This document shows, piece after piece, positions 9,457 to 27,212 of a stretch of 64,000 nt of DNA (positions are counted from its first letter, which is position 1; each line of letters opens with the position of its first letter). The position numbers and the translations under genes were made by a program. The DNA is taken from NCBI GenBank assembly GCA_001560915.1, contig CP014214.1:1364001-1428000 (forward strand), given 5' to 3'. The notes below the pieces were generated by a model. That model saw nothing but the letters and a program-made list of their open reading frames with translations. It made no database searches and was not told the DNA's origin. The DNA is from a methanogenic archaeon ISO4-H5 (GTDB taxonomy: Archaea; Thermoplasmatota; Thermoplasmata; Methanomassiliicoccales; Methanomethylophilaceae).

Positions 9457-11608
9457 CTTCTCTCCAACCCTCCTTCTTAGGGGCCAGGGTGCCCCTGATC
9501 CAATCCTCCGCCAGGGCCCTTCCCGCGAAAGGATCCGTCACCGTGACGTACGGGAGACGGCACTGGTAGATCTCCGGCGATACCGCCACCGAAGCGGGTA
9601 TCAGCAGTATATCCGGCTTGAGGGAATCTATCTCCCTCAATACATCTGGCACATCCTTCTCGGCAATGACCGTGAAGGCCTTATCAAGATAATCGGAGGT
9701 AAGGTTGGAACTGTAATCGGAACGCTTCAGCAGGTATGCACGCTGCATGTCCATCCCCACCAATTCCACCGCTTCCCGTATCCAGGAAACATCGTTGCCG
9801 ATGGTCAGGATGCAGCATTTCTTACCGGCCAACAGCCTGCGCGGACCTTCCATGAGGCTGCGGTACTGCTTCTCAATCGATGCCAGCAGTACCTCGGCCT
9901 CTTTCTGCTTACCAAAATACTCTGCCACGCAGCCTATCCATCCCGCGACACCGACCAGACCTCCGCGCACCGGCTGTTCCAACGAGGGTATGCCGAACTC
10001 ATCCTCCAGGTACATGCACATCTTCTCGGTGAAGAGATCGGGATTGAGCTTCAGGTTGGCAGCGGCCTCGGGGATCCTGCCGAGCTCCTCCACGGTGCTG
10101 AACCCGGGGAGGATGCAGTTGACTTCCACACCCAGTTGGCCGAGATAATCCCTGACCTGCTACAGTTCGGAACAGGCGCTGCTGGCCATGGTCTTCACGC
10201 CGACCAGGTTGACCGTCATCGGCCTCGTATCGCCTTTGGAAGCGAAACGCTCTATGAGGCCTATGCCTGCATCCAGGGTGCCCTGCATGAAATCCCCGGT
10301 GGCGTTGCCGTCCTCCTCCAGGACCGCTATCTTCACGCCGGGATGCTCCTTCTCGACGGCGGCAGCCACTCCTCTGGGATCATCCCCGATTATCCCCGGG
10401 GGACAGGCGGTGATCACGGCGAAATCCCTCTTCCCGAGGGAGATCTGCTCCTCCAGCTTTCTGCGGAGGAGGTCGTTGCCGCCGAAGACCATGGTTCCCT
10501 CGCCCATATCCGTGCATATGACATCGGGATCCCCGAAGGTCTCCGACGTACTGTATCCCCTTGTGTACGCACCCTTCACGCTCTTGGAATCCAGCTGTAC
10601 GGTGAGCTGTGCACAGCTCCTCGGAGAATGAAGTATTGTGGTAAGCCCCTTCACCGAGGTACATACAGAAGATGCCCCGGAGAAGGCACAGCCGTGGATG
10701 GGTTCGTCGTAAGCAGTATTCTTAGAAGTGTAGGGACGGAATTCGGTACCGGTGACGTTCAGTTCCCGGTGCACCGGTTTCTCCTTCTTGGCGGTCTCCC
10801 TGCCCAGGATCAGCTTCTCCAGTTCGTTCTCCGAAAGGAACCGGGCATGGTACCTCTTCCCCTCGATGACGGCATGTGCCAGATCCCTGAACGTCCCGGC
10901 GATTTCGGAGTCCGGGAAGGCCCCTATGACAGTGACCCCGCGCTGTTCCGCATCCATGAATACGGAAGAACGGGGGATCCTCGCTACGATGGGTATGCCC
11001 ACCGCTTCCGAGAACCTCTCCACGCGGGCCTCCTCCTCCGGGTCGCCGCGGCTGTTGAATATGATTCCCCCGATCCTGTCGGGATTGTAATTGGCCGTTC
11101 CCCTCAGGATGTTGTTGGCCGCATAGATGGCCATGAACTCGCCGGAGGTGACGATGTACACGGTATCCGCATAATCGTTGCGGAGCGGGACGGCGAAACC
11201 TCCGCACACCACATCGCCCAGTACGTCGTAGAGGGTGATGTCCGAATCCACCTGGCCCGAACCGAGCCTCTCGAGCAGGTCGAAGGCGGTGATGATACCT
11301 CTGCCTGCGCATCCGACCCCGGGTTCGGGGCCTCCGGCTTCCACGCAGAGGCAACCTTTGTAACCCCGTGAGACCACGTCCTCCAGCTTCCTGTCCTCGG
11401 GTTTCACTTCCTTGAGATAGTCGAGAACGGTGTTCTGTACGGCGCCTCCGATGAGACCTCTGGTCGAATCGTGCTTGGGATCGCAGCCGATCTGCAGGAC
11501 CCTGATGCCCATGTCAGAAAGGGCAGCGGTGAGATTGGATGAAACTGTAGATTTACCGATTCCGCCTTTTCCGTAGATTGCGATTTTTCTCCTTGCGGAG
11601 CCACTCAT
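9446..11608 (-). CDS. NifH-NifD fusion with in-frame TAG (apparent pyrrolysine 483)
   Basis: Read through one TAG at 10160-10162, this is a 720-residue protein. Residues 1-270 are a complete NifH-type reductase: Walker loop GKGGIGKST (13-21), cluster cysteines C100 (GVGCAGRG) and C135 (DVVCGGF), and the switch region GCDPKHDST. Residues 300-720 are a NifD-type domain with three cysteines at P-cluster-like positions: C307 (IHGCAFSGA), C332 (SPRSCAQL) and C402 (ITACPPGIIGDD). The TAG falls after SSACSEL; the frame continues at once with QVRDYLGQLGVEVN, a normal NifD helix-strand, so the domain is intact only if TAG is read. Pyl genes lie in this window and no gene here ends in TAG, so pyrrolysine insertion is the simplest reading; a nonsense mutation is the alternative. 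ATG 11608 begins the NifH fold. Confidence 0.72.
10160..10162 (-). other. Internal TAG codon, apparent pyrrolysine, in the NifH-NifD fusion
   Basis: Codon 483 of the fusion. The flanking codons translate as ACSEL before and QVRDY after, in one frame, with no other stop until 9446. A split gene would have to restart at a GTG (10129) inside the NifD fold. Confidence 0.65.
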
Positions 11609-11788
11609 ATTGGATGATAGCGCTAACTCGATTAATAACAATATCTCATTTTCTGGCTGTTAACTGAAAACCATCTTGAGTAGATAGATTTAGTAAATTA
11701 TAACATATCATAACACTTGTTAATATTATTGGAGTAAATAACCAATAAATAGTTTGGATGTGAATTCCAACAGCGTAGGAGATTACAT
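11609..11788. promoter_or_regulatory. Divergent promoter region
   Basis: 180 AT-rich bases between the leftward nitrogenase-like genes and the rightward surface-protein gene. For the latter a TATA-like stretch (aataaatag, about 11743-11751) and an AGGAG ribosome-binding site (11777-11781) seven bases before the ATG are visible. The repeated taacatatcataacac segment may hold the leftward elements. Confidence 0.4.
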
Positions 11789-14700
11789 ATGTTCTCTACG
11801 AACGTGAAATTACTGACGATAGTTATCGCAGCCATTTCCGTACTTTCTGTAGCATCTTTGATTGCTCCGGAAAGTGATGCAGATTCTGATACCACCTATC
11901 AGTTCTATCTGATTAACACGGTTGATGGCGAAGATAGCACCCATAACGGCTGGTATACCGCCACGGGAACCAGCGTGATGGATGCTTTCTGTAAAGCACT
12001 GGATAATGCAAAAATCCCTTACCAAAACTTTTCATCCACCACTGAATCATATTTTTTCAAGAGTGGAGATTTGAACAACTGGACAACAGCATGGGACTCT
12101 GAGGCCACTGATTCACTTGGAGCTAACATCGCTGTTTGGAACTACAACGCAGAGAAGGGATGGTATCTCGGAGGAGCATTCGGTTCCAGTACAGATACCG
12201 TATATGCAATCTCTCATGAGAATTACTATAAGGCCACCGGACCTACCGCAGTCGCTGCAGGCGTCTTCGGTGACAAGGATGGCAACTGGTATGCTCCCGC
12301 AGGATGGAACACCGACAACTGCAAGTGGGGCTACGTGCAGGCCGCACCCCGCGACCTCAAGGCAGCACCCGCTGATATGGTATTCGGTGCAGACCCTGCC
12401 GCACTCAAGGAGTACACCTTCATCATCAACAACAGCATCGACGGAGAAGACAGCTCCTTCAACGGAACCTTCACCGCAAAGGGTGCCAACCCCGTGCAGG
12501 CCTTCAAGGCTCTGCTGACCGAGAAAGGTGTGGCAAGCACCTTCGACTACTATTCCGAGTCTGTGTATTTCAAGAGCAAGATGATTTCCGACTGGACCAC
12601 CGCTTGGGACGCCCAGGCAGAAGACGCACTCGGAGCAAACATCGCCATCTGGAACTACAACGCAGAGAAAGGCTGGTTCATGGGCAACTCCTTCGGAAAG
12701 GATCCCGAGACAGTCTATCTGATCTCTCATGAAATGTACTATAAAGCATCCGGACCCACCGCAGCCGCTGCAGGCGTCTTCGGTGACAAGGACGGCAACT
12801 GGTATGCTCCCGCAGGATGGAACACCGATAACTGCAAGTGGGGCTACGTGCAGGCCGCACCCCGCGACCTCAAGGCAGCACCCGCAGAGGTTGTATTCGG
12901 AGCCGATCCCGCAGCCGTGAAGGAATACACTCTCATCCTTGACAACAAGATCGAGGGAGAGGACATGACCCTCAACGGAACCTACACCGTAAAAGCCGAC
13001 AGCCCTGTAAACGCACTCTTCAAAGTCCTGACCGACAAGGGTGTAGCGCACAAGCTCAAATACGGTGCGGCATCCGTTTACTTCGGTGACAAGAGCATCT
13101 CCGACTGGTCGTTCGCATGGAACAGCAGCAACGACCTCGTCGGAGCTAACTACGCAGTTTGGAACTACAACGCAGAGAAGGGATGGTATCTCGGAAACAG
13201 CTTCGGAATGGATGCTGACACCACATACTATCTGTCTCACGAGAACTATTACTGCCCCGACGGAAAGACCGCCCGCAGCATGGGTGTCGACGCTTTCTGT
13301 GCTTGGGACAACCCCTCAGCACACGGACTGGTATACGACGGAAAGACCGGCGGATACCTGGACATCTTCGATGCAGCAGCAACCTGGTACCATGAGAGCT
13401 TCGGAATGGGTGACGCCGCCAAATACGGAATAACCTACGACGGAAAGACCGGCGACTACGACGATGTTAACGATGCTCTCACCGGCTGGATGGCATCCTT
13501 CGACAACGAATACAAAGCAGGCGCAGGAATCTGCCTCGACGGAACCCAGTACGGATACTTCCAGCTGTGCCCCCGCGACCTCAAGGCAGCACCCGCAGAC
13601 ATGGTCTACGGATCCGACCTCAGCACTATGAAGGAATACACCTTCATCATCAACAACAGTGTCGAGGGAGAGGACAGCTCCTTCAACGGTCTCTACACCG
13701 TTACTGCCGCCAACCCCGTTCAGGCATTCATAACCATTCTGGACAAATGCGGAGTCGCCAACAAGCTCGACTGGAATGCGGCATCCGTATATCCCGGATC
13801 CGGCGACATCGCCAACTGGACCACCGCTTGGGACAAGGAAGCAGCGGATGTCGTAGGAGCCAACTTCGCTATCTGGAACTACAACAGTGAAAAAGGCTGG
13901 TTCACGGGCAATTCCCTCGGAAAAGACCCCGAGACCACATACCTGATCTCCCATGAGATATACTACAAGGCCACCGGACCTACCGCAGTCGCTGCAGGCG
14001 TCTTCGGTGACAAGGATGGCAACTGGTATGCTCCCGCAGGATGGAACACCGACAACTGCAAGTGGGGCTACGTGCAGGCCGCACCCCGCGACCTCAAGGC
14101 AGCACCCGCTGATATGGTATTCGGTGCAGACCCTGCCGCACTCAAGGAGTACACCTTCATCATCAACAACAGCATCGACGGAGAAGACAGCTCCTTCAAC
14201 GGAACCTTCACCGCAAAGGGTGCCAACCCCGTGCAGGCCTTCAAGGCTCTGCTGACCGAGAAAGGTGTGGCAAGCACCTTCGACTACTATTCCGAGTCTG
14301 TGTATTTCAAGAGCAAGATGATTTCCGACTGGACCACCGCTTGGGACGCCCAGGCAGAAGACGCACTCGGAGCAAACATCGCCATCTGGAACTACAACGC
14401 AGAGAAAGGCTGGTTCATGGGCAACTCCTTCGGAAAGGATCCCGAGACAGTCTATCTGATCTCTCATGAAATGTACTATAAAGCATCCGGACCCACCGCA
14501 GCCGCTGCAGGCGTCTTCGGTGACAAGGACGGCAACTGGTATGCTCCCGCAGGATGGAACACCGATAACTGCAAGTGGGGCTACGTGCAGGCCGCACCCC
14601 GCGACCTCAAGGCAGCACCCGCAGAGGTTGTATTCGGAGCCGATCCCGCAGCTATACAGGAATATACCTTGATTCTGCTGAACCTGGTCGAAGGACAGGA

Positions 14701-15853
14701 CAACTCCATCAACACCACCTACACAGGAGTTGGAACCAACCCCGTCCAGGCACTAGTATATGCTTTGGACAGGGCAGGCGTAGCTAACACCCTCGACTAC
14801 GGCGCAGAGTCTATCTACTTCGGTAACGGAATGATTTCCGACTGGACCACCGCCTGGGAATCCGCTTCCGCTGATGTAATCGGTGCTAACTACTCAATCT
14901 GGAACTACAACGCAGAGAAGGGATGGTTCACTGGTAACTCCTTCGGAAAGGACCCCGAAACTGTCTACCTTATCGTCCACGAGAACTACTACCAGCCCAA
15001 AGGCCAGTCCTCTGTCGCCATGGGTGTCGTTGACAATGGTGATGGAACCTACACTGCTCCTGCAGGTGTTGAGGCAAATGCCTGGTACGCACATCTCGCC
15101 CCCGTCGACCTCAAGGCAGCACCCGCCGATGTCGAAGTGAAGCCCTTCTACTTCATTACCTTCGACTCACTCGGAGGATCCGCAGTCCCGATGCAGGCAT
15201 ACTATGAGGGCGCTAACATCGTGGCACCGACTGACCCCACTAAGACTGATGTCTCCTTCAACGGATGGTCCCCTGCACTGCCCGCTACCATGGGCAACAA
15301 GAGTATCACTGTTACAGCGGTGTGGCTCGTGAAGCCTGTCGAGAAAGAGGACACTGTCGAAGTCGATCTCTCGGGAGACGATGACAATTTCATCATGCCT
15401 GAGACCACAAAGACTGTAACCGTTGAGATGGCCAACAACTCTAGTGTTGTTATCAAGGATACCTCTGAACTCGCCGGAAAGGTCGTTACGGCATCCATTA
15501 CCTCTGTCGAGAACCCCTCCACCGTGAAGGGTACCGCATACGAGTTCGAGTTCAAGGCTGACGGCTCCACATACAATGGAAAGATTCAGGTAACTGTACC
15601 TTACACAAAGAATGGTGAGGGGAGCCCTGTAGTCTACTTCGTTAACGGATCCGAGAACGTGAAGATGAAGATCATCTCCTCGACCGACAACTCTGTCACC
15701 TTCGAAACCGATCACAACTCCACCTACGTTGTCACTACCGAGGACCTCGGCGGAGAGATCGGAATGGTCAACATGATTGCTGCCTTCGCAATCGCAATAG
15801 GCATCATCGTTGCTGCCCTGATGGCCATCCTCCAGAGGCCCAAGAAGGCTTGA
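11789..15853 (+). CDS. Large repeat-containing cell-surface protein
   Basis: 1354 residues. A signal peptide (LLTIVIAAISVLSVASLIA) starts the chain, and one C-terminal transmembrane helix (MIAAFAIAIGIIVAALMAIL) followed by QRPKKA anchors it with a tiny cytoplasmic tail. Six related ~170-residue modules begin near residues 36, 207, 377, 614, 786 and 956. Each starts Y-x-F/L-I-x-N-x-x-[DE]GED, has a W-TTAWD segment and an IWNYNAEKGWF segment, and ends in RDLKAAPA. Module 3 carries an extra ~65 residues with two YDGKTG units. Residues ~1120-1185 look like an InlB B-type repeat (ITFDSLGGSAVPMQ); ~1190-1320 form another beta domain. The modules loosely resemble DUF4430/transcobalamin-like domains found in the ABC proteins next door, so corrinoid or other ligand capture is possible; adhesion is the alternative. 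Confidence 0.7.
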   Translation: MFSTNVKLLTIVIAAISVLSVASLIAPESDADSDTTYQFYLINTVDGEDSTHNGWYTATGTSVMDAFCKALDNAKIPYQNFSSTTESYFFKSGDLNNWTTAWDSEATDSLGANIAVWNYNAEKGWYLGGAFGSSTDTVYAISHENYYKATGPTAVAAGVFGDKDGNWYAPAGWNTDNCKWGYVQAAPRDLKAAPADMVFGADPAALKEYTFIINNSIDGEDSSFNGTFTAKGANPVQAFKALLTEKGVASTFDYYSESVYFKSKMISDWTTAWDAQAEDALGANIAIWNYNAEKGWFMGNSFGKDPETVYLISHEMYYKASGPTAAAAGVFGDKDGNWYAPAGWNTDNCKWGYVQAAPRDLKAAPAEVVFGADPAAVKEYTLILDNKIEGEDMTLNGTYTVKADSPVNALFKVLTDKGVAHKLKYGAASVYFGDKSISDWSFAWNSSNDLVGANYAVWNYNAEKGWYLGNSFGMDADTTYYLSHENYYCPDGKTARSMGVDAFCAWDNPSAHGLVYDGKTGGYLDIFDAAATWYHESFGMGDAAKYGITYDGKTGDYDDVNDALTGWMASFDNEYKAGAGICLDGTQYGYFQLCPRDLKAAPADMVYGSDLSTMKEYTFIINNSVEGEDSSFNGLYTVTAANPVQAFITILDKCGVANKLDWNAASVYPGSGDIANWTTAWDKEAADVVGANFAIWNYNSEKGWFTGNSLGKDPETTYLISHEIYYKATGPTAVAAGVFGDKDGNWYAPAGWNTDNCKWGYVQAAPRDLKAAPADMVFGADPAALKEYTFIINNSIDGEDSSFNGTFTAKGANPVQAFKALLTEKGVASTFDYYSESVYFKSKMISDWTTAWDAQAEDALGANIAIWNYNAEKGWFMGNSFGKDPETVYLISHEMYYKASGPTAAAAGVFGDKDGNWYAPAGWNTDNCKWGYVQAAPRDLKAAPAEVVFGADPAAIQEYTLILLNLVEGQDNSINTTYTGVGTNPVQALVYALDRAGVANTLDYGAESIYFGNGMISDWTTAWESASADVIGANYSIWNYNAEKGWFTGNSFGKDPETVYLIVHENYYQPKGQSSVAMGVVDNGDGTYTAPAGVEANAWYAHLAPVDLKAAPADVEVKPFYFITFDSLGGSAVPMQAYYEGANIVAPTDPTKTDVSFNGWSPALPATMGNKSITVTAVWLVKPVEKEDTVEVDLSGDDDNFIMPETTKTVTVEMANNSSVVIKDTSELAGKVVTASITSVENPSTVKGTAYEFEFKADGSTYNGKIQVTVPYTKNGEGSPVVYFVNGSENVKMKIISSTDNSVTFETDHNSTYVVTTEDLGGEIGMVNMIAAFAIAIGIIVAALMAILQRPKKA
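12230..12915 (+). repeat. Copy 1 of a 686-base direct repeat
   Basis: Identical, as far as I can read, to 13967-14652. The spacing of 1737 bases is a multiple of three, so the repeat preserves the reading frame. It covers the end of module 1 and all of module 2 of the surface protein. Confidence 0.85.
13967..14652 (+). repeat. Copy 2 of the 686-base direct repeat
   Basis: Identity starts after tactac/tactat (13966 differs from 12229) and ends where gcagct replaces gcagcc (14653 versus 12916). It covers the end of module 4 and all of module 5 of the surface protein. Confidence 0.85.
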
Positions 15854-16064: not shown

Positions 16065-16910
16065 TCACTCGAACCATTCATCCTTACCCATATACTTCTT
16101 AGGCAGGATATACAGCTCGCCATCGCGATCCAGTCCAACGGTGGAACTTACTTCGTATACATCTTCGATAAGTTCCTCGGTGATTATCTTCTTAGGATCT
16201 CCGACTGCAACAAGTTCTCCCTTCTTCATGATGACACATAAGTCACAATACCGGGCCATAAGGGAGATGTCGTGTTCGGCCACCAGGACAGTCATATCCT
16301 TTTTGACCATCGCCCTCAGATACTCCATCACGTTTAGCTTATACTTCATATCAAGGTGTGAAGTAGGCTCATCGACGAGCATCAGTCTGGGCTCCTGAAC
16401 ATATGCCTTAGCGATAAGAACACGCTGGCGTTCTCCGCTCGAGAGCATGTTGAGCTGTTTATTCATCAAATGGTGCACACCGAATTTCTTCATTGTGTCC
16501 ATGACGATGGTTTCATCCTCATCGGTCTCCCACCACAGATTCTTGAGATAGGGGTATCTCCCTAGCATGACTGTCTCGTACACAGTAAGCCCGAAACTGT
16601 TACGGAGTTCAGCTGGGACATTCGCAACCTTTTTCGCAATCTCATTGACAGTCTTTCCTTTGACCGATTCACCATCGATGCGAATATCGCCTTCCTGGAA
16701 ATCGTGCATGCGGTTTATACATCTCATCAGTGTGGTCTTACCGCACCCGTTGTGTCCAATCAGACCGACCAGTTTTCCTGAAGGAATAGAAAATGACACA
16801 TCCTTGACGGCATGATATCCGTCCTCGTAATACTTGTTCAGATGACTGACCTCGAGCAGAGGAACGTCTCCTGTCCCCTGGAGGGAACTCGGCATAGTAA
16901 TCTCATCCAT
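16065..16910 (-). CDS. ABC transporter ATPase, iron/cobalamin uptake type
   Basis: A 281-residue ATP-binding protein of the FecE/BtuD family that powers import through the adjacent permease. It has Walker A LIGHNGCGKTT, Q-loop region, the ABC signature LSSGERQRV, Walker B RLMLVDEPTSHLD and the switch histidine in LVAEHDISL. The C-terminal ~40 residues (SSTVGLDRDGELYILPKKYM) are typical of the FecE-like subgroup. ATG 16910 overlaps the permease stop by eight bases, so the genes are translationally coupled. A further in-frame start at 16979 would lie deep in the permease gene. Substrate is inferred from the partners: a corrinoid more likely than an iron chelate. Confidence 0.9.
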   Translation of the reverse strand: MDEITMPSSLQGTGDVPLLEVSHLNKYYEDGYHAVKDVSFSIPSGKLVGLIGHNGCGKTTLMRCINRMHDFQEGDIRIDGESVKGKTVNEIAKKVANVPAELRNSFGLTVYETVMLGRYPYLKNLWWETDEDETIVMDTMKKFGVHHLMNKQLNMLSSGERQRVLIAKAYVQEPRLMLVDEPTSHLDMKYKLNVMEYLRAMVKKDMTVLVAEHDISLMARYCDLCVIMKKGELVAVGDPKKIITEELIEDVYEVSSTVGLDRDGELYILPKKYMGKDEWFE

Positions 16911-19900
16911 TGTACATCCTCCCTTTCTTGATGAGAAGGTATGCAAACACCGGCACACCGATAATTGTCGTGATGGCACCGACAGGAAGCTCCGTTGGGA
17001 CCATCAGCATCTTGGCCAGCAGATCCGCGAACAGCATGAGTGCACCACCCATCATGATGGAGGAGGGCAGGACAAGCCTGTGATCTCCACCGAGCAGCAT
17101 ACGACTGAGGTGGGGTATGACCATTCCGACGAATCCGATGATACCCACGAACGCTACGCAGACCGAGGTGAGGACCGAAGCGAGAATGAGCATCCATCTG
17201 TTGAACTTCCTGACGTCCAATCCCATCTGTTTGGCCTGATCTTCACCAAGCAGGACAAGATTCAGTTCCTTCGCCCAGAATAATGGCACTATTGCGAGGA
17301 AAATCGAAGGGAAGGTGATTATCCATACTGTATTCCAGCCCACATTGGCGAAGCTTCCAAACAGCCAGGAAATGGCACTAGTAAGCTTATCACTGTTGGA
17401 GGTTACCAACATCAGAGTCTGTAATGCGGAGAACACCAGGCCGATGACTACTCCCGCCAACACATAATTGGTGGAAGAACCGCCTGCCTTCTCAGCAATG
17501 ATCATGGTCAAGGCGAATGCCAAAAGTCCTCCGACTGCCGCGAGAATGGGCGTAGAGAAACTGTTGTTGACAAGAAGTCCAAAGAATGTGAAGTTTGCCA
17601 CGATTGCTGCTACTGCGAAGGTTCCCGCTCCGGACGACACACCCATGATATATGGATCTACCAGAGGATTCCTGATTATGGCCTGGTAAACACAACCCGC
17701 TATCGACAGACCGATACCTACAGAAAGTGCAGCCATCGCCCGGGGGAGCCTCGTCTCATAGACGATGATTTCTTTGAAATCAAGATTCTGTCCGTGTTTT
17801 CCGACTGCGGAGACCAGGGCGGACAGGGTATCCGTAAGAGAGAGGGTTACCGAAGGACCTACCGCTAGACAGACGATGAACATAACGAATGTGATTGACA
17901 GACCCAGCAGGCAAACGATGAGTAGTCTCAGCTTGTTCTGCTTTACCTTTGATTTGGCGCTGCTAGGAGAGATTAGATTCTTGAAGTATGCGGGCACAGA
18001 CATGTGCGCAGCCTTGGCACCACGGATCAGGAACACCATGAAGATAACCAGAAGAATCACGGCAATGACCAGTATAACGTAAGAAACCCAATCCTTGCCT
18101 CCATCGGAATTGACGAGTTTGATGACCGAATCTACACTGACTGTCGGGACTGCGGCCGCAGAACCATACATCACAGAGTAAACCTTTCCCGAAGAACCGC
18201 TAAGAGGTTCTGCAGATGCGACCCATTTACCCGAGTCTCCCTGGAAGCCCTTCCAGCTGTTCCCTGCAGTGGCAGTAATTCCGAACAGAGACATGTCGGC
18301 TCCAGAAAAGTCGTGAGGGATAGCATACGTGATACAAGCGTTCTCGAGTGCGGCAAGAGCGTTATCTCCGACACCGTTGACTATGAAAAACTCAGTAGTA
18401 GACGATTCGATTAGGAACCTAGTTCCCTCATCGCTCGCCTTCAACGGAACAAGTTCACTGCTCTTGGGAAGATTCTCAGGTGCAGGGGTTGTCATACCCG
18501 TAGTCTTCCCATAATAAATCATAAAGGCGGAATTATTCTTGGCCTGAAGATTGTTCATAGTGTTTTCGGCCGTGACCCAATAATCCGTACCGGAATCCCA
18601 CTGGTAACTCATCCAATACATGAACTGGTCGTCTTCGGTCTGGATATAACTCATACCGAACAGACTTTGTATTCCGTTGCGTGACTCTCCTCCGGAATAC
18701 TTCACATAGTCAGAGTATCCGTTGTCTGTGATTGCATTGGTGAGTGCATCGATGACTGTGACTCCGGAACCTTCAATGCAGAAATAAAACTTCTCGGTAT
18801 CCACGATGAGGAATTTTACTGTTGCTGCGACCTCGGGTTCGGGTTCTGGCGGTGTGGGAGGAGTAGGAGGTGTAGGATCCGGGTCGTCTTTTCCGTCAAC
18901 GAGGACACCTTTAATCACGAAAGCACCGCTGTCAGTAGCTACACCGATATAATTTCCGGCAACAAATGTGCCAGCCATTGTGTAGGCCTCCTGATTCGCA
19001 GTCTTTTTGGAAAACTCAGCCAATTTTTTCAAGCTCATATTGTATACTACGAGGGAGCCTTTCTCATCATAGTCCGTAGCATAAAGATAGGTGTTGTTCA
19101 CCAGGGTAAACCCGCCGTGGGTCTCCGATACATCCCCGACCTTTTCGAACCCGCCGTTCGTATATATGCGGTAAAGGACGTTGTCAGCAGAGGCGTATAC
19201 AAATGTCTTAGATGGAGAAATCACCAGGAAATTGTTCTGAACGGAGAGATCCAGATTGCTGCCGGTTACCTTAGTGATGATGTTGGTGGATGCGTTGTAC
19301 TTAAGAACGGCTGCATTCCAGTAAGCACAGCTCATACCCTTTCCGTCATTGAAACTGACGATTATGTTCTCTCCGAGAACTGCAGGAGTGCCTACACGAC
19401 CTCCGTTGTCATAGTACAAAAGCAACTCGGTCTTTTTGGCTCCGGTGACCTCGTCGAGAATGTACAGCTTTCCGTCACATCCGCCGACATAGACAAGTCC
19501 GTTAGCCACTGAGACGGAAGTGGAAGGATAGACCGTACCGACTTTGGTCTGCCATACGATGTCGAGATTGGGAGTGGTACAATAGATGGTTCCTGAGGTA
19601 CTGCCGATGAATAAGTGCCCGGAATCATAGACGATGGAGGACATCCCCCTCATTATCGTACTTCCCTTCTCAGTATACGTAACATCACCGACAAAATCAT
19701 GGGTGATTGTACCTGCATTGGGGCCTACTATCGGAATACAATTGACCTTGCCGGAACAGGTAGGGAAATACGCATTCCCTCCGTAGATGGCACCTGTCGC
19801 AAGATCGTAAGAGTTGTAGACGTAAAATGTGTCCCATTCCACCGCCCCTGTCTCTATGTTGTACGAGGCCATATGCGTCTGCGCAGGGCCCTTGTAATGC

Positions 19901-20484
19901 TGCAGCATCGCGATGAAGTGCCCGTTTGCAGTAAGCGGCGTGGCATAGCTGGCTGGCACAGTATCATCGGTTATTGAAAAATTGAGGGAACCGGTCAGAA
20001 TATCTGCATCATAATTGTTCACGGTTCCGCTGTTTAAAGAATCGCCGTGGATGCAGGTCCAAGCTGTTTTGTAAGAGGGAGTGACAGTAGGAACAATTCC
20101 GGCAGGATAGAACCCCACGGCAATATAGGACCCATCATAGGTGGAGGATCCGTTGTAAGCAGTGTCTACCCATCCAGATGAATACACGTAATAGTGCCAT
20201 TCCGCAGTAGAGTCTGAAAATGCACGGGAGGTAAGTCCGTTTACTGTAATGGTCCCTCCGCTACTGGAAAATGTCATATTTTCCTGTGAAAATGCCGTGG
20301 TCAGGACATCGTCCAGGGTTCCGGACCCTGGCGCGACCCATGTTGTCTGCCCGTTACCCATATCTAAAAGTACCTTGGGCTCCGGCTCCGTGTCTGCCTC
20401 GCTCCTGTCTGCGGACACCAGCACTACCGATGCTGCCAGAACAATGACGGTGATCGCCAGAAGCAATAGTGGTTTCTTGTTCAT
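16903..20484 (-). CDS. FecCD/BtuC-type permease fused to extracellular propeller and DUF4430-like domains
   Basis: 1193 residues, over three times the usual ~330-residue permease. Order: signal peptide (LLLLAITVIVLAASVVLVSA); a DUF4430-like domain (~36-135); a PQQ-type beta-propeller (~140-545, repeated GxxYxxx[CG]DGK-like blades, for example LVYVGGCDGKLYILDEVTGA); a Pro-rich linker (TPPTPPTPPEPEP); two more DUF4430-like domains (~572-795); a transmembrane helix (VSYVILVIAVILLVIFMVFL); then a full FecCD permease (~850-1193, with LPRAMAALSVGIGLSIAG, NPLVDPYIMGVSSGAG and FVGIIGFVGMVIPHLSRM). No stop or frame change separates the parts. DUF4430 belongs with transcobalamin-like ligand domains, so the outer part may capture corrinoid for the channel; the propeller's role is unknown. 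The gene lies seven bases after the binding-protein gene. Confidence 0.88.
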   Translation of the reverse strand: MNKKPLLLLAITVIVLAASVVLVSADRSEADTEPEPKVLLDMGNGQTTWVAPGSGTLDDVLTTAFSQENMTFSSSGGTITVNGLTSRAFSDSTAEWHYYVYSSGWVDTAYNGSSTYDGSYIAVGFYPAGIVPTVTPSYKTAWTCIHGDSLNSGTVNNYDADILTGSLNFSITDDTVPASYATPLTANGHFIAMLQHYKGPAQTHMASYNIETGAVEWDTFYVYNSYDLATGAIYGGNAYFPTCSGKVNCIPIVGPNAGTITHDFVGDVTYTEKGSTIMRGMSSIVYDSGHLFIGSTSGTIYCTTPNLDIVWQTKVGTVYPSTSVSVANGLVYVGGCDGKLYILDEVTGAKKTELLLYYDNGGRVGTPAVLGENIIVSFNDGKGMSCAYWNAAVLKYNASTNIITKVTGSNLDLSVQNNFLVISPSKTFVYASADNVLYRIYTNGGFEKVGDVSETHGGFTLVNNTYLYATDYDEKGSLVVYNMSLKKLAEFSKKTANQEAYTMAGTFVAGNYIGVATDSGAFVIKGVLVDGKDDPDPTPPTPPTPPEPEPEVAATVKFLIVDTEKFYFCIEGSGVTVIDALTNAITDNGYSDYVKYSGGESRNGIQSLFGMSYIQTEDDQFMYWMSYQWDSGTDYWVTAENTMNNLQAKNNSAFMIYYGKTTGMTTPAPENLPKSSELVPLKASDEGTRFLIESSTTEFFIVNGVGDNALAALENACITYAIPHDFSGADMSLFGITATAGNSWKGFQGDSGKWVASAEPLSGSSGKVYSVMYGSAAAVPTVSVDSVIKLVNSDGGKDWVSYVILVIAVILLVIFMVFLIRGAKAAHMSVPAYFKNLISPSSAKSKVKQNKLRLLIVCLLGLSITFVMFIVCLAVGPSVTLSLTDTLSALVSAVGKHGQNLDFKEIIVYETRLPRAMAALSVGIGLSIAGCVYQAIIRNPLVDPYIMGVSSGAGTFAVAAIVANFTFFGLLVNNSFSTPILAAVGGLLAFALTMIIAEKAGGSSTNYVLAGVVIGLVFSALQTLMLVTSNSDKLTSAISWLFGSFANVGWNTVWIITFPSIFLAIVPLFWAKELNLVLLGEDQAKQMGLDVRKFNRWMLILASVLTSVCVAFVGIIGFVGMVIPHLSRMLLGGDHRLVLPSSIMMGGALMLFADLLAKMLMVPTELPVGAITTIIGVPVFAYLLIKKGRMYNG

Positions 20485-20491
20485 GTTCCCC

Positions 20492-21859
20492 TCACAATGT
20501 TTTGGAATAGGTTAGGTAATTGGCATATTCATTTCCGAAGAATTTGGGAATGGCAATCTTGTCGGGGAAGGAGTCCTCATGGAATATCCTGCCCACAAGT
20601 TCGGTCGCCTGTGCCAGACGTGTGGAAGGTCTCTGCATAAGATCCGCGGCGGAACCGCAGACCATGTAGATTTTATCATTCTTGTAGGCGTCAGTGGATT
20701 TCCATTCTTCGAGGAGATTCGCCATAATGAAATCATAGTTCTCTTGGGTGCTCTCATACTGACTGATAACCAGGATGATCTGCGGATTCGACTCGACAAT
20801 AGATTCGGGATTGGCTTGTTTCCAACCGTCTATCGTTTTATCCTTGTTGATATGGACATTGACAGATCCGTCGAATGCGTTATATGCACCAGATTTGCTG
20901 TAAATGTCCGAAATATAAGTGTTGACCCCTGCTACCCAGGGTGCTTTATCCGTAGAGAGCGAGACCATGATGTAGGGGCGCTCTGTGGTCGAAGAAACAA
21001 ACGTCCGAGTCTGTTCAACCTGTTCTTTGAGTTTTTCAGTAATCTGCGTCGCCTTGTCCGGTATGCCCATCGCAACTCCCACCATGTAGGTGTTGTCGTA
21101 TACGGTCTGAAGACTCTCTCCGTCCCCGGTGACCACACCGTTGATTCCCACGGCCCTCAGCTTCTGGATCATCTGGGTATGGCTGTACTGACTTGATATT
21201 CCAATGACGAGATCCGGATTCAGCTGGAGAATCTTTTCCATGCTTGGAGTTGTATAACTTCCTGTTTCAGCAATGATTCCTGCAGCCCTCTTTGCTGCGA
21301 TTGTAGCAGGGTAGTTACTATATCTATCCGTCCCAACGATGAGATCTTCGCCGCCCAGGGCACAAACAGTCTCCGTACAGGAGGGTGCAAGACACACGAT
21401 TCTCTTCGCAACGCCCAGATTATAAAACGAGTATCCGGAAGCATCTACCATCGGTGTGGGGGTGCGTCCTTCCGCGCAGAGTCCCCAGGATGCACTTCCC
21501 TCATTGAGTTTGTACTCCGATGGGTTACCCGAGTACTTTTCCCAAGCAGAACTCTCGTTCAGAACATAGAGATTCCATGAACGCTTGTCACCTGCTCCCG
21601 GAAGTCCGTTGATCGTCTTCACGCTTCCGTCACCATCGTATGTGATCGGGTACCCCAACTCAGTACACATACCTACCAATGCTTCGGAAGCATTCGAACC
21701 TTCGGAGGCTGTACCGCCTTTTATGTTATAGTCTCCAAAGTCCAAAAGAAATGTGTTTGTACCGGATGAATCAGAATTCTTCGTGAACGAAAGGCCCAGA
21801 AATACGCCAGAAACCACCAAAATGATAGACAGAATGACTTTGAGCCTTAAGGTGTTCAT
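20492..21859 (-). CDS. BtuF/FecB-type substrate-binding protein with N-terminal DUF4430-like domain
   Basis: 455 residues. An N-terminal hydrophobic helix (VILSIILVVSGVFLGLSF) anchors or secretes the protein. Residues ~33-140 form a DUF4430-like domain (NTFLLDFGDYNIKGG ... KRSWNLYVLNESS). Residues ~150-455 are the two-lobed periplasmic-binding fold of vitamin B12/iron-chelate importers: RIVCLAPSCTETVCALGG, the ILQLNPDLVIGISSQ strand and VNTYISDIYSKSGAYNA. ATG 21859 is chosen because it follows a purine-rich AGAGGAA and gives a clean signal helix; the open frame continues upstream to 21982. It is first in the operon with permease and ATPase. Corrinoid binding is inferred from fold, DUF4430 and the divergent cob operon. 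Confidence 0.85.
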   Translation of the reverse strand: MNTLRLKVILSIILVVSGVFLGLSFTKNSDSSGTNTFLLDFGDYNIKGGTASEGSNASEALVGMCTELGYPITYDGDGSVKTINGLPGAGDKRSWNLYVLNESSAWEKYSGNPSEYKLNEGSASWGLCAEGRTPTPMVDASGYSFYNLGVAKRIVCLAPSCTETVCALGGEDLIVGTDRYSNYPATIAAKRAAGIIAETGSYTTPSMEKILQLNPDLVIGISSQYSHTQMIQKLRAVGINGVVTGDGESLQTVYDNTYMVGVAMGIPDKATQITEKLKEQVEQTRTFVSSTTERPYIMVSLSTDKAPWVAGVNTYISDIYSKSGAYNAFDGSVNVHINKDKTIDGWKQANPESIVESNPQIILVISQYESTQENYDFIMANLLEEWKSTDAYKNDKIYMVCGSAADLMQRPSTRLAQATELVGRIFHEDSFPDKIAIPKFFGNEYANYLTYSKTL

Positions 21860-22064
21860 AAAGATTCCTCTTTTGGTTATACCATCCATTAACCTTTCTT
21901 TTATGTTAAAAAGGTGTCGTAATCCTCCAACTGTGCGAAGATTGACTGATTGATAAAAAAGACAGAATTCTCTCATAAACACCGTAATCGAAGGCGGGAA
22001 TAATCTCCGCTAAGTTGGGGGATTTACAGTCTTTTAAAATAGAGCGAGGCCATTACCCGACTGT
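21860..22064. promoter_or_regulatory. Shared region between corrinoid uptake and corrinoid synthesis operons
   Basis: 205 bases. A TATA-like box (cttttaaaata, 22031-22041) lies 24-34 bases before the cobD start, suggesting a leaderless transcript. The leftward uptake promoter must lie at about 21880-21950. I looked for a B12-box and riboswitch fold and found none. Confidence 0.5.
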
Positions 22065-23183
22065 ATGCAAATCGAGACTAGAAAGGAACTCGAATCTCTC
22101 CCCTCCACCGTCCACGGAGGACAGGGATGGAAGCTCGACGGGGTCGAGGACTACAGTCAGAACCTCAACCCGTTCGGTCCCCCGAAGGACCTTTCCTCGA
22201 TCCTCGCCGACAGCGTCAAAGACACCGGCCATTATCCCGACGCAGACTGCATGTCCGTGAGGAAAGCCATCGCGGAGCACTACGGGCTCGGCCCCGAGAA
22301 CGTCGCCATGGGCGCCGGTTCCTCCGAGATCATCCGCAACTTCCCCCAGGTTTTCATCAGGCCCGGAGAGAGCGTTCTCATCCCGACACCGTCCTTCGCC
22401 GAATATACCCAGCAGTGCAAAATTGCGGGTGTACATGTAGACAACATCATACTGAAAGCAGAGAACGACTTCCGCCTCGACAGGAACGAACTGTTCTCCA
22501 TGCTGGAATCCAAGCACTACGCAGCTCTGTACATCTGCAACCCCAACAACCCCACCGGCAGGGTGGAGAAGAGGGAGAAGCTCATCGAGATCGTCCGCAG
22601 ATGCGACGAACTGGGAACCATGGTGTTCCTCGACGAGACCCTGCTCTCCCTCGTGGCCGACGAGAGCCTGGTGTCCCTCAGCGGCATGGTACGCGACTTC
22701 AGCAACCTCATCGTCGCACATTCATTCACCAAATCCTTTGCCATCCCCGGCATGAGGGTCGGCTTCGCCCTCGCCAACGACAGGATAATCAAAGAGATGG
22801 ACAAGGTCAGGCTTCCCTGGAACGTCGGCACCCTCGAACAGACCGCCGCCGAGCACCTGGTCAGATATGACATCTCGTATGTGTCCGAGGCCGCCAACAC
22901 CATGAGACGGGAATCCAAGGTCATGCATTCGGATCTGGAGGCCCTGGGATTCCCGGTGGGCCCACTATCCGATTCGTTCTTCTATTTCACATCGGTCAGG
23001 GAACTGGGCATGAACGGCGCCGCTTTCCAGAAGGCGATGCTCCGGGAGGGTATCATGGTCCGCGACTGCGCCTCCTTCGGACCCGGTTTCGAAGATTACG
23101 TAAGGTTCTGCGTGAAGGATTCCGCACGCAACAGAAAGTTCGTGGAAGCGGTGCACCGCGTCCTGAAATCCATGAGTGACTGA
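22065..23183 (+). CDS. cobD: L-threonine-O-3-phosphate decarboxylase-like PLP enzyme
   Basis: A 372-residue fold-type I PLP enzyme related to histidinol-phosphate aminotransferase. In cobalamin synthesis CobD makes (R)-1-amino-2-propanol phosphate, the linker joined to the corrin ring by CbiB. Seen: YSQNLNPFGPP and AMGAGSSEIIRNF near the N-terminus, the NPNNPTGR motif, the DETLL strand and the Schiff-base lysine in AHSFTKSFAIPGMRVGF. Assignment as CobD rather than HisC rests on its place as first gene of a cobD-cbiB-cbiZ-cobS-cobY operon. No upstream SD is seen; a TATA box 24-34 bases upstream implies a leaderless start. Confidence 0.85.
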   Translation: MQIETRKELESLPSTVHGGQGWKLDGVEDYSQNLNPFGPPKDLSSILADSVKDTGHYPDADCMSVRKAIAEHYGLGPENVAMGAGSSEIIRNFPQVFIRPGESVLIPTPSFAEYTQQCKIAGVHVDNIILKAENDFRLDRNELFSMLESKHYAALYICNPNNPTGRVEKREKLIEIVRRCDELGTMVFLDETLLSLVADESLVSLSGMVRDFSNLIVAHSFTKSFAIPGMRVGFALANDRIIKEMDKVRLPWNVGTLEQTAAEHLVRYDISYVSEAANTMRRESKVMHSDLEALGFPVGPLSDSFFYFTSVRELGMNGAAFQKAMLREGIMVRDCASFGPGFEDYVRFCVKDSARNRKFVEAVHRVLKSMSD

Positions 23184-23187
23184 TCAC

Positions 23188-24228
23188 ATGCAGCTCTGGT
23201 TCGACGGCATCCTGATTATCATCCTCGCAATGCTGTTCGACCGTTACGTCGGCGATCCTTCGAACAAGTATCATCCCCTCAGATGGATGGGCAACCTCCT
23301 GCAGGCCATAGACAACCGCCTCACCAAGAGGAAATCGTACCGCGCGGTGCTCCTGGGATTCTTATCGTATCTCCTGGTGTTCATCGTCTTCGGAGGTGTC
23401 GCGATTCTCATCACCGGGAGCATCCGCCACTTCCTCGGTGATCAGATCCCCTTCGATATCGCAGGCGTGCACATCACCGTCGGCGAGATCCTTTGGATAG
23501 TGGTGAGTGCTTATCTTGTGAAGATAACCTTCGCCCTCTTCGCCTTCAGGCGCTTCTGCAAACCCATCGAAGAGGACCTCAGGAAGGGCGACCTCGATGC
23601 CGCGGCAGACAAGACCCAGATGATGGTGAACAGGAAGATGAGGGGCATGGATCTGCCCCATATCACATCCTCCTGCTGCGAGACCATCTCGGAGAACCTG
23701 GTGGACAGCGCCGTATCTCCCCTTCTTTACTACGGACTCTTCGGTCTGCCCGGTGCGGTCATGTTCCGCTGCGCGAACCTCATGGATGCCATGTGGGGAC
23801 GCCTCAACGAGAAGTACAAGGATATCGGACACTTCCCCGCAAGGTGGGACGATGTGCTGGGATTCGTACCTTCCAGGCTCTCCCCCCTGTTCATAGGATT
23901 CGCAGCCTGGCTCATGCGCTTCAGGAGCGGCAGGAGCGCGGTGAAGGCAGCCATGAAAGAACACCGTAAGACCCCCAGTCCCAACAGCGGATGGCCCATG
24001 ACCGCCACCGCCGCCGCGATGGGCATCTCCTTCGAGAAGGAAGGGGTGTACGTCATGGGCGAGGGCCCCCTTCCCTCGATCGACGACATCGCCGGATGCT
24101 ACCGCCTCATCGAGCTTACCGCCGTGGTATTCATGATAATTCTGGTATTCCCGCTCTCCGCCCTCCTGGGGATACACATTCAGGTTATATTCGAGGACGC
24201 TCTTATCAGATTATTTGGAGTGTTCTGA
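23188..24228 (+). CDS. cbiB: Adenosylcobinamide-phosphate synthase CbiB
   Basis: A 346-residue membrane enzyme that amidates adenosylcobyric acid with aminopropanol phosphate. It has the family's opening FDRYVGDPSNKYHPLRWMG, several transmembrane segments, the conserved SCCETISENLVDSAVSPLLY and the MFRCANLMDAMWG motif. The ATG at 23188 begins MQLWFDGIL, typical of the family; a GTG at 23176, overlapping cobD, is possible. It ends in a one-base overlap with cbiZ. Confidence 0.92.
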   Translation: MQLWFDGILIIILAMLFDRYVGDPSNKYHPLRWMGNLLQAIDNRLTKRKSYRAVLLGFLSYLLVFIVFGGVAILITGSIRHFLGDQIPFDIAGVHITVGEILWIVVSAYLVKITFALFAFRRFCKPIEEDLRKGDLDAAADKTQMMVNRKMRGMDLPHITSSCCETISENLVDSAVSPLLYYGLFGLPGAVMFRCANLMDAMWGRLNEKYKDIGHFPARWDDVLGFVPSRLSPLFIGFAAWLMRFRSGRSAVKAAMKEHRKTPSPNSGWPMTATAAAMGISFEKEGVYVMGEGPLPSIDDIAGCYRLIELTAVVFMIILVFPLSALLGIHIQVIFEDALIRLFGVF

Positions 24229-25340
24229 TGGAATGCATAAAAAGCGTCGAAATCCACGAAGAGGATAACTTCGAGGCTACGGCGATCATCAGGTTTACGG
24301 AGAAGATGGAGGTCCTCAGCAGCGCCCCCCAGAACGGAGGGCACGCCGTCACGGACACTGTCTTCATCATGCAGGTACCGCACGACTACGTCAGTGCGGA
24401 TTACCTTGCGGATCTCAGGAACAAGACGGAACAGTACTCCCTCCCCAAGGATTCGGTCGGTTTCATGACCGCGGCCGAGGTGAAGTACGTGTTCACAGAC
24501 TGCGAGAAGACCGTGGACGGCGCCACGGTATACGTGGCATCCACCGCCGGGGTCACCAACTGCGTATGCGCAGGCGACAGGATGGAGGATTGGGAGCACC
24601 GCAAGGCCCGCTCTGCCGAGATTTACCACAGGCTGATCGGAGGCACCATCAACACCGTGGTCGTGTCCCCCCTGCCTCTGACGGACGCCGCCAAGATCAA
24701 TCTCATGATTCCCATGGTCGAGGGCAAGACCCTTGCCATGAGGGACCTCGGCTACGAAGAGACCGGTACCACCTCCGACGCCATGGCAGTCGTCTCCGCC
24801 ATCGGGGAGGACAGGTGCGAGTTCACCGGGACAGGGACACCGCTCGGCATGGCCGCGGCACAGGGGGTCAGGGAGACCGTGGCGGGATGCATCCGCAGCC
24901 GCGGAGAATCCCCCGAACCCTTGGACAGCCTCGCCATGCTCGAAAGGAAGGGTGTCACCAAGGATATGCTCTGGGACTGCGCATCTGCGTGCGGTCTCAG
25001 CGAAGAACTTACCGACCGTTTCTGGGAGGTCTTCGATACGATGGAGACCGACCCGGACATATGTTCCCTGGTCTACGTCTCCCTTGAGGCGGGCCGCCAG
25101 GCGGACCTAAACTGCATTTACAACCAGATGGAGGGCGAGTACCCCGACATGCTCGTGGACGGCACCCTGGCCATGTTCCTGGCCGGGCGCATTTCCGAGA
25201 CTAGGGGCAGCGATGCCACCATCGACCTTCTCCGTATGAGGCCGCTGAAGGACAGCGGTCTCGCAGAATACACTGAGAACACCGTCTACGGCCTGGTAGC
25301 AGGCGTGGTCGGATACATCACGGGGTATACAGATGAGTGA
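24228..25340 (+). CDS. cbiZ: Adenosylcobinamide amidohydrolase CbiZ with extra C-terminal domain
   Basis: 370 residues. The N-terminal ~220 match CbiZ, which cuts the linker off salvaged cobinamide to give adenosylcobyric acid for reuse: STAGVTNCVCAGD, GGTINTVVVSPLPLTDAAKIN and TGTTSDAMAVVSA are family motifs. The C-terminal ~130 residues (from PLDSLAMLERKGVTKDM) form a separate helical domain; methanogens fuse CbiZ to the alpha-ribazole phosphatase CobZ in other arrangements, but I cannot confirm that identity here. ATG 24228 shares one base with the cbiB stop. Presence of cbiZ says the cell remodels imported corrinoids. Confidence 0.85.
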   Translation: MECIKSVEIHEEDNFEATAIIRFTEKMEVLSSAPQNGGHAVTDTVFIMQVPHDYVSADYLADLRNKTEQYSLPKDSVGFMTAAEVKYVFTDCEKTVDGATVYVASTAGVTNCVCAGDRMEDWEHRKARSAEIYHRLIGGTINTVVVSPLPLTDAAKINLMIPMVEGKTLAMRDLGYEETGTTSDAMAVVSAIGEDRCEFTGTGTPLGMAAAQGVRETVAGCIRSRGESPEPLDSLAMLERKGVTKDMLWDCASACGLSEELTDRFWEVFDTMETDPDICSLVYVSLEAGRQADLNCIYNQMEGEYPDMLVDGTLAMFLAGRISETRGSDATIDLLRMRPLKDSGLAEYTENTVYGLVAGVVGYITGYTDE

Positions 25341-26613
25341 ACAGAACGAAGACGGAAGGACGTGGACAGGTCCCCTGAGCGCGTCCTCTCCCGAAGACTA
25401 CGAGAAAAAGAAAGAACCCGTCCAAAATGACGACCTCGACTCCCTCCTTCAGCAGGCATGGAATATCGCGGTCGCCAAGGTGGGCGAGGACAGGGCCGAG
25501 GAGATGTCCGACGAGGAGATCCTGGAGGTCGTCCGTTCCGAGGATGCAACCCTGTACGAGAAGATAACCGCTCTCACGGGCACCTCCGCGGAAGAGCCTT
25601 CTCAGGACACTCCTTCAGATGTGCCAGCACAGGAAACTGTGCCTGCGGTTCAGACCACCGGCGCATTGACCGAGACCGAGACCCGCCCTGCTCCCGCAGG
25701 CAACATGGAACCGGTCAAGGAAGGCAGGATGCGCAACATCAACATCAGCCCCTCCGGGATCATAGGTGCCCTGAAATGCATGCTGTCCTTCTTCACAATC
25801 ATAAGAATCAACGTGGACGAGAAGGACATGGAAGCCATGGACCAGAACTTCTGGCTTGCCCCGGTTATCGGACTGGTTACCGGTATCGTCGGTTTCATCG
25901 CCTGCCTCATCTTCGCATTGGCCGGCCTCAGCAATATCATAGTTCCCATCGTCGCCATCGCCAGCGTCTACATATTCTCGAAATTCCTGCATTTCGACGG
26001 ACTCGCAGACTTCGGCGACGGAATGGTCGTATCCTCCGGCAACAAGGAGGATCACGTCCGTGCCCTCAAGGACAGCCGTGTAGGTGCCGGCGGTCTCGGC
26101 GTCGCCCTGACTGTGGTACTGCTTACCCTGCTCTCGTACATGGAATTCGACGCCATATTCGGCATGCCCATCCATAACTGGACATTCATGATCGGGGTCC
26201 CCATGGCAGTCCTGAGCATTGAGGTCCTCGTTAAGTACTCCCAGGTCGTGGCAGCCACCTTCGGCAATCCCGGCAACGGAATGGCCTCCAACCAGGTCCG
26301 CAACACCGACATAAACTCGCTCATCCTGTCCAGCGTCCTGACCCTGATCCTCCTGGCCATCACTACCGTAATCGGCTGGGCCATGATCAGGTACAGCAGC
26401 CTTGGAGCGGTACCCATCCCCGGATGGCATATCGGACTCATGTTCGTGATGGGATTCGTTATGGCCGCGGTCGTGGGAGTCCTGATGGCCCACATCTCCA
26501 ACAAGAACTTCGGATTCGTCAACGGAGACGTGCTCGGAGCGACTAACGAGATCTCCCGCTGCGCCATCCTCCTCGTGACTCTCCTGATCGAAGGATTCAT
26601 AATGACCTGGTGA
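25333..26613 (+). CDS. cobS: Adenosylcobinamide-GDP ribazoletransferase CobS with N-terminal extension
   Basis: 426 residues, against about 250 for usual CobS. The last ~290 form the membrane enzyme that joins the lower ligand to adenosylcobinamide-GDP: KCMLSFFTIIRI, the metal-binding LHFDGLADFGDGM, KDSRVGAGGLGV and the closing MAHISNKNFGFVNGDVLGA. The first ~130 residues are acidic and Pro/Ala/Glu/Thr-rich, with a short helical segment (LDSLLQQAWNIAVAKVGED) that resembles no CobS part. The start overlaps cbiZ by eight bases. An internal start at MRNINISPSG would give a normal-length CobS, but the long frame has the operon's codon use and the right overlap. Confidence 0.9.
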   Translation: MSEQNEDGRTWTGPLSASSPEDYEKKKEPVQNDDLDSLLQQAWNIAVAKVGEDRAEEMSDEEILEVVRSEDATLYEKITALTGTSAEEPSQDTPSDVPAQETVPAVQTTGALTETETRPAPAGNMEPVKEGRMRNINISPSGIIGALKCMLSFFTIIRINVDEKDMEAMDQNFWLAPVIGLVTGIVGFIACLIFALAGLSNIIVPIVAIASVYIFSKFLHFDGLADFGDGMVVSSGNKEDHVRALKDSRVGAGGLGVALTVVLLTLLSYMEFDAIFGMPIHNWTFMIGVPMAVLSIEVLVKYSQVVAATFGNPGNGMASNQVRNTDINSLILSSVLTLILLAITTVIGWAMIRYSSLGAVPIPGWHIGLMFVMGFVMAAVVGVLMAHISNKNFGFVNGDVLGATNEISRCAILLVTLLIEGFIMTW

Positions 26614-26615
26614 AC

Positions 26616-27212
26616 ATGGAAGCGCTTATCAACGCCGGCGGAAAAGGAACCCGTATGGGTGATTGCGGTATCGAGAAACCTATGCAGGTCATAGGCGGAG
26701 AGCCCGTAGTGATGCGTGTGGTGAACGCCATGCGCAGCGCAAAGAGCATCGACCGCGTGCTGGTGTCAGTAAGCGAGCATACCTCGGCCACCGCCCGTTA
26801 TCTGGAGGATAACGGGATCGAAACCATTCACACGTCCGGGGACGACTTCATGATGGACCTCCACGACTCGTTCAGCGTCCTGAACGGGAAGTACGTCCTG
26901 ACCAGTCCCTCGGACATCCCCATGATGACCTCCACGGTGATCGACAAGACCGTCGAAGCGTTCAGACCCGAGATGCAGTCCATGATCGTCTACATCGATG
27001 CTGGCACTGTGCGCGAGATGGGGGTCATCCCCTCCTACACGAAGGAGATAAACGGAAAAGAATGGGTGATCTCCGGTCTTTCCATAATGGACCGTGAGGC
27101 CACCCTCGAAGGCACCTACCTCAACGAGGAAGGTCTCTTCACGGATTGGCAAGAGCTCGCCGTCAACGTGAACACGCAGGGCGAGCTCTCCCTTGCCCGT
27201 AAATTGGTTTGA
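26616..27212 (+). CDS. cobY: Adenosylcobinamide-phosphate guanylyltransferase CobY
   Basis: A 198-residue nucleotidyltransferase that activates adenosylcobinamide phosphate with GTP; archaea use CobY in place of CobU. The N-terminal LINAGGKGTRMG loop, EKPMQVIGGEPV and SPSDIPMM metal site define the family. ATG 26616 is two bases past the cobS stop; a GTG at 26610 would overlap. It is the last gene of the operon and its stop abuts the stop of the convergent topA. Confidence 0.9.
   Translation: MEALINAGGKGTRMGDCGIEKPMQVIGGEPVVMRVVNAMRSAKSIDRVLVSVSEHTSATARYLEDNGIETIHTSGDDFMMDLHDSFSVLNGKYVLTSPSDIPMMTSTVIDKTVEAFRPEMQSMIVYIDAGTVREMGVIPSYTKEINGKEWVISGLSIMDREATLEGTYLNEEGLFTDWQELAVNVNTQGELSLARKLV

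Follow-up and report, generated by a model that had tools for sequence, protein, structure and literature searches.

A FecCD-type permease fused to an outer beta-propeller and DUF4430-like domains in Methanomassiliicoccales

Results

A single chain joins an outer half to a permease

The window analysed here is a stretch of 64,000 nucleotides (contig CP014214.1, positions 1,364,001 to 1,428,000) from the closed genome (1,937,883 bp) of the methanogenic archaeon ISO4-H5. In our reading of its open reading frames, the minus-strand frame at 16903-20484 encodes an uninterrupted protein of 1193 residues, and the plus strand opposite carries stops throughout. From the N-terminus, the chain has a signal segment, one DUF4430-like domain, a propeller, a further pair of DUF4430-like domains and a transmembrane (TM) helix, and it ends in a complete FecCD permease. 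Hydropathy peaks at residues 2-28 (the signal) and about 795-830 (a single TM segment), followed by the permease helices, and profiles place the DUF4430-like domains at residues 35-138, 553-666 and 677-785. The first-pass annotation had described just such a 1193-residue chain, and frame, hydropathy, profiles and AF2 models all bear it out. The features of the locus are as follows (window coordinates).

11789..15853, plus strand: 1354-residue repetitive surface protein with a C-terminal TM segment, beside the operon (ORF)
16065..16979, minus strand: BtuD-like ATPase (ABC_tran 1.4e-32)
16906..17937, minus strand: FecCD/BtuC permease, residues 850-1193, with docking arginines R912 and R915 (Pfam FecCD 1.6e-84)
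17995..18096, minus strand: TM helix linking outer half and permease, residues 797-830 (hydropathy 3.51)
18130..18456, minus strand: third DUF4430-like domain (C2b), residues 677-785 (profiles C2a 28 bits, C2b 98 bits)
18487..18828, minus strand: second DUF4430-like domain (C2a), residues 553-666 (AF2 fold, structure search)
18850..20070, minus strand: eight-bladed PQQ/BamB-type beta-propeller, residues 139-545 (Pfam PQQ_2, AF2 model)
20071..20382, minus strand: first DUF4430-like (transcobalamin-beta-type) domain, residues 35-138 (profile A6, 122 bits)
20401..20484, minus strand: N-terminal hydrophobic signal segment, residues 1-28 (hydropathy peak 2-28)
20492..21982, minus strand: BtuF-like binding protein carrying a DUF4430-like domain of its own at the N-terminus, residues 63-182 (Peripla_BP_2 2.8e-37; A7 profile)
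22065..27212, plus strand: divergent corrinoid salvage cluster of CobD-like aminotransferase, CbiB, CbiZ, CobS and CobY-like nucleotidyltransferase (Pfam, NCBIfam)

The importer components

The permease half matches FecCD (PF01032) over residues 865-1186 with 284 bits against a cut-off of 26.5 (E 1.6e-84). Its score of 213.8 bits falls below the NCBI BtuC equivalog cut-offs of 334 and 461, and we therefore call it BtuC-like and not a BtuC equivalog. Residues R912 and R915 are invariant in 26 relatives and align with R56 and R59 of BtuC (1l7v). The separate binding protein, which the first-pass annotation had also seen encoded, returns BtuF-type matches in a PDB search, and the glutamates at its docking positions are conserved among 50 aligned relatives (E249 in 98%, E393 in 86%). 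In E. coli, these glutamate positions and R56/R59 form the contacts between BtuF and BtuC. The BtuD-like ATPase scores 203 bits against a corrinoid ATPase model, below its equivalog cut-off. The operon contains both the BtuF-type binding protein and the BtuD-type ATPase expected of a BtuCDF system. A Pfam search finds no Peripla_BP (SBP-fold) match in the 1193-residue chain itself.

Several features of the binding proteins may be recorded here. The GTG start listed for the ISO4-H5 BtuF gives the longest possible frame; translation probably begins at an internal ATG before MNTLRLK. The motif SVNVHINKDK (window 20837-20866, minus strand; BtuF residues 373-382) is at least about 92% conserved among the BtuFs of fused loci, and its histidine could face the ligand. 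At locus L090 (4287-6911), one frame of 874 amino acids holds two tandem BtuF units with DUF4430-like N-domains.

The DUF4430-like domains

DUF4430 (PF14478) does not exceed the Pfam cut-off anywhere in the 1193-residue chain or in its genome, so the assignment was tested through fold and intermediate sequences. The AF2 model of the C-terminal domain pair (C2; pLDDT 91.6) retrieves haptocorrin (Z 10.5), intrinsic factor (Z 10.2) and transcobalamin beta domains (Z 9.0-9.7), together with the bacterial DUF4430 protein 3u7z (Z 9.2); the next fold follows at Z 5.9. Identity to the beta domains of the B12 carriers is 9-14%. In the model, helix 29-39 leads into strands 46-49 and 56-60, the two-strand hairpin insert after the helix that defines the transcobalamin-like clade of SLBB domains (PMC1796856). 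The first DUF4430-like domain has the AF2 order b-b-a-b-b-b-b-b-b and is linked to the C2 and BtuF N-domains at 95-97% in hhalign; the third (C2b) is linked at 95%. Against three true DUF4430 proteins, hhalign gives a weak 38% for C2 and 86% for the BtuF N-domain, and the C2 profile finds chance matches only among PDB sequences. Standalone C2-type orthologues in two other assemblies (G060, G066) do exceed the Pfam DUF4430 cut-off.

The assignment to DUF4430 thus rests on the predicted fold (Z 10.5), on profile-profile links and on the standalone orthologues above the cut-off. The DUF4430-like calls of the first-pass annotation hold in fold and profile links, while the Pfam cut-off is not reached within the chain. 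As modelled, the C2 domains match the beta domain with which haptocorrin, intrinsic factor and transcobalamin bind cobalamin, and an isolated human copy of this beta domain has been solved with bound cyanocobalamin (PDB 5np4). The shared fold does not prove that the DUF4430-like domains bind B12, and SLBB domains may have ligands other than B12 (Burroughs et al. 2007; PMC1796856).

The propeller

A scan restricted to the outer half matches PQQ_2 with 29.0 bits (cut-off 27.6). The AF2 model of the N-terminal domain plus propeller (pLDDT 90.8) has about 32 propeller strands, corresponding to eight blades. Its closest structures among the matches listed are Rv3035 (Z 36.7), YxaL (Z 36.0), the designed protein Cake8 (Z 35.2) and BamB. 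Since Rv3035 and YxaL lie within 1 Z of each other, we read this as a general fold match, and the likeness to PQQ-dependent enzymes is likewise one of fold alone. The corrinoid-binding propeller BtuG is not among the best 50 propeller structure matches listed, a result that leaves room for a more distant likeness, and it has seven blades in contrast to the eight modelled here.

Distribution among relatives

Matches to the outer half occur in 92 of 147 genomes of Methanomassiliicoccales. Among 80 named loci with relatives, we counted 70 complete outer modules, of which 54 are fused in frame to a permease and 16 are split, i.e., separate genes directly 5' of a permease. Three assemblies of the same genus (G046, G040, G042) have the full architecture as one frame, at 53-56% identity over the full length. 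The order in fused loci is BtuF, fused permease, BtuD, and wherever the contig extends far enough, a BtuF gene adjoins the fused permease. Most fused relatives have a single DUF4430-like domain per chain. The two extra domains lie within the chain only in the four-species clade of the window; in other genera they form a separate gene upstream of btuF.

The fused arrangement is therefore real and common across Methanomassiliicoccales. An assembly or frameshift artefact, which the first-pass annotation had named as a reason for doubt, is ruled out by the same single frame in the three same-genus assemblies and by the 54 fused named loci; the latter also dispose of a fusion peculiar to one strain. 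Separate genes in close relatives, the other reason for doubt, are found in a paralogous operon only, and the orthologues are fused. The first-pass annotation knew of no BtuC-type permease with such an outer half, and our literature search, with most subscription journals outside its reach, likewise found no description of a FecCD permease fused in this way. An expansion of B12 transporters in these archaea, with adhesin-like proteins nearby, has been reported without note of the fusion, and the BtuC clades that expanded have been associated with the niche of Methanomassiliicoccales in ruminants (PMC10804542).

Possible fission, second permeases and other partners

We built a permease tree by a quick method (SH-aLRT support, unrooted). 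The split permeases cluster in one well-supported group, at whose base sits a single fused permease (L148); the majority of fused permeases fall in a second group, and fused versus split corresponds to one change. In 11 of the 16 named split loci the permease start lies in frame past the TGA of the outer gene with no other stop between, and two of the three split operons in the ISO4-H5 genome show the same pattern. The permease begins in frame 0-27 bases past this TGA in L002 (1618-1623), in L003 (1612-1617) and in split named loci. Such a pattern would be expected after a fused gene had split in two, although the loci are related to one another and the tree has no root. Conceivably the pattern reflects readthrough; we do not claim this, because the loci belong to a single clade and TGA serves as an ordinary stop codon.

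Second permeases without an outer half nest inside the fused group with support 100, which suggests heterodimers. In seven loci (L131, L133, L134, L136, L113, L119, L121) a fused permease is followed by such a second permease, and operons of this type probably encode a heterodimeric channel.

The outer module is also found with other transporter parts. In L177 and L178 a DUF4430-propeller protein shares an operon with a true DUF4430 protein, CbiQ and a double ATPase (an ECF transporter), and a double ATPase lies near a DUF4430-propeller protein in L066, L069 and L070. The known association of SLBB domains with CbiQ/CbiO (PMC1796856) is matched by these DUF4430-propeller/ECF loci in other families. 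In L067 (484-3618), a chain of 1044 amino acids joins a propeller, two PKD domains and a DUF4430-like domain to BtuF, with an unfused permease and cob genes as neighbours. A module that can stand beside ECF components, join BtuF or join the permease evidently moves among transporter parts.

Genomic context and the ligand

Of 56 fused loci, 15 have at least two corrinoid salvage genes close to the operon, compared with 0 of 15 split loci (Fisher p 0.03, loci counted irrespective of kinship). In the Odinarchaeota locus L161, corrinoid salvage genes adjoin an unfused BtuCDF-like operon. From this gene context, the ligand of the operon is most likely a corrinoid. No Rfam match to a corrinoid riboswitch is found in window positions 5000-30000.

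Two other neighbours deserve mention. Relatives of the 1354-residue surface protein adjoin the operon in L043/L083 and L044/L085; profile matches that would make it a series of DUF4430 repeats are weak. A NifH-NifD-like gene (window 9446-11641, minus strand) has an in-frame TAG at 10160-10162, and its NifH part resembles CfbC, with a score under the cut-off. An amber codon has been reported in a predicted nitrogenase gene of ISO4-H5 (PMC5011839), so this TAG may encode pyrrolysine. In L092, L098, L100, L109 and L111, too, the operon has Nif-like genes in its vicinity.

Discussion

The operon shares with E. coli BtuCDF a FecCD permease, a BtuF-type binding protein, an ATPase and the aligned docking arginines R56/R59. 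It differs in that the permease adds an outer half of 800 residues and an extra TM helix, and BtuF adds an N-terminal domain. With transcobalamin, intrinsic factor and haptocorrin, the DUF4430-like domains have in common the beta-domain fold and the two strands between helix and core sheet; in contrast to these carriers, the chain has no alpha/alpha toroid partner, is only 9-14% identical and stays below the Pfam cut-off. BtuG, a surface lipoprotein of Bacteroides, is likewise a surface beta-propeller in tight partnership with a B12 transporter; it binds corrinoids and acts as a lid on BtuB (PMC10404256). BtuG has seven blades and sits on the outer-membrane protein BtuB, whereas the propeller here has eight and is fused to an inner permease. 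The module would work like BtuG and is not a member of its family. The SLBB/DUF4430 surface proteins of Burroughs et al. (2007) also combine DUF4430-type and propeller domains in one protein, but they are separate proteins beside an ECF transporter (CbiO/CbiQ), and a fusion to a FecCD permease is not described there. GlnPQ and OpuA have a receptor covalently tied to the permease, as here; however, their fused domains have the SBP fold, while here the SBP is separate and the fused part is a propeller with beta-grasp domains. Finally, in mycobacteria the eight-bladed propeller Rv3035 has been solved bound to FecB, a protein of the BtuF fold (PMC12802301). This pair, which is tied to arabinan biosynthesis and not to an ABC permease, is a precedent for contact between a propeller and a binding protein.

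We consider it somewhat more probable than an even chance that the operon encodes a corrinoid importer of the BtuCDF type whose permease bears a tethered capture module, which hands its ligand to BtuF on the same complex. The transcobalamin-type domains would catch scarce corrinoid at the cell surface, and the propeller would hold BtuF, add to the ligand site, or both. BtuF would then take over the corrinoid and dock on the permease by the usual Glu-Arg contacts, and BtuD would power import. A permease homodimer would place two outer halves over one channel; in the sub-lineage with a second, outer-less permease there would be one per channel. The fusion of 54 of 70 modules, the C2 fold, the salvage genes, the partner swaps, the docking residues and the propeller precedents together tip the balance slightly toward capture. 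Counting against it are the seven blades of BtuG and the single DUF4430-like domain in most fused relatives.

The chief rival is that the outer half is purely a docking platform for BtuF, the propeller holding BtuF near the channel and the DUF4430-like domains making protein contacts with no corrinoid bound. The top propeller match, Rv3035 with its FecB partner (PMC12802301), argues for this, as does the homologous DUF4430-like domain of BtuF, which could pair with those of the permease. A platform leaves the specific likeness to the B12-gripping beta domain unexplained, however, and the near tie of Rv3035 with YxaL marks a general fold match; we regard this alternative as unlikely, though worth serious attention. 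The first-pass annotation went the other way and made the outer half a receptor that frees the channel from its binding protein. In type I importers such as GlnPQ and OpuA, a fused receptor does stand in for the free binding protein (PMC8025302, PMC11065425). Against this stand the constant BtuF neighbour with its conserved docking glutamates, the invariant docking arginines of the permease and the lack of an SBP-fold match in the outer half, and a dispensable BtuF seems very improbable. With BtuF adjacent and both E249/E393 and R912/R915 conserved, the fusion adds a step to the BtuF route and BtuF is still needed. Thus the earlier picture of a corrinoid receptor keeps its corrinoid context and transcobalamin-type folds but loses the replacement of the binding protein.

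Two further alternatives concern cargo and purpose. The importer might carry another tetrapyrrole or metal chelate, e.g., haem, an F430 precursor or a siderophore: iron- and haem-binding proteins are among the best PDB sequence matches of BtuF, the scores of models for F420-0 and haem transporters come near those of the BtuC, BtuD and BtuF models, and NifH/NifD-like genes lie nearby. Yet a corrinoid salvage cluster adjoins many loci, including the Odinarchaeota relative, and we think another cargo improbable. The outer half could also be a surface spacer or adhesin-like element, or strip corrinoids off other gut carriers, with no direct role in hand-over. Adhesin-like proteins do adjoin B12 transport genes in these archaea (PMC10804542), as well as the operon of the window; on the other hand, the tree shows the fusion long retained and the module is swapped only among transporter partners, which makes this reading quite improbable. 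Taking capture and hand-over a step further, we propose more tentatively, as somewhat less than an even chance, that a corrinoid receptor of non-SBP type, made of intrinsic-factor-type domains and a propeller, passes its ligand from the permease to BtuF, and that it is a portable module which Methanomassiliicoccales attached in turn to an ECF transporter, BtuF and BtuC.

The methyl-reducing methanogenesis of Methanomassiliicoccales requires corrinoids. If the outer half captures them, the receptor would join the B12-binding fold types of gut Bacteroides (the propeller) and of animals (the beta domain), and it would be physically joined to the importer itself. One complex would then suffice to test how the ligand passes from the receptor by way of the binding protein to the channel, and rumen methanogens would offer a specific surface target.
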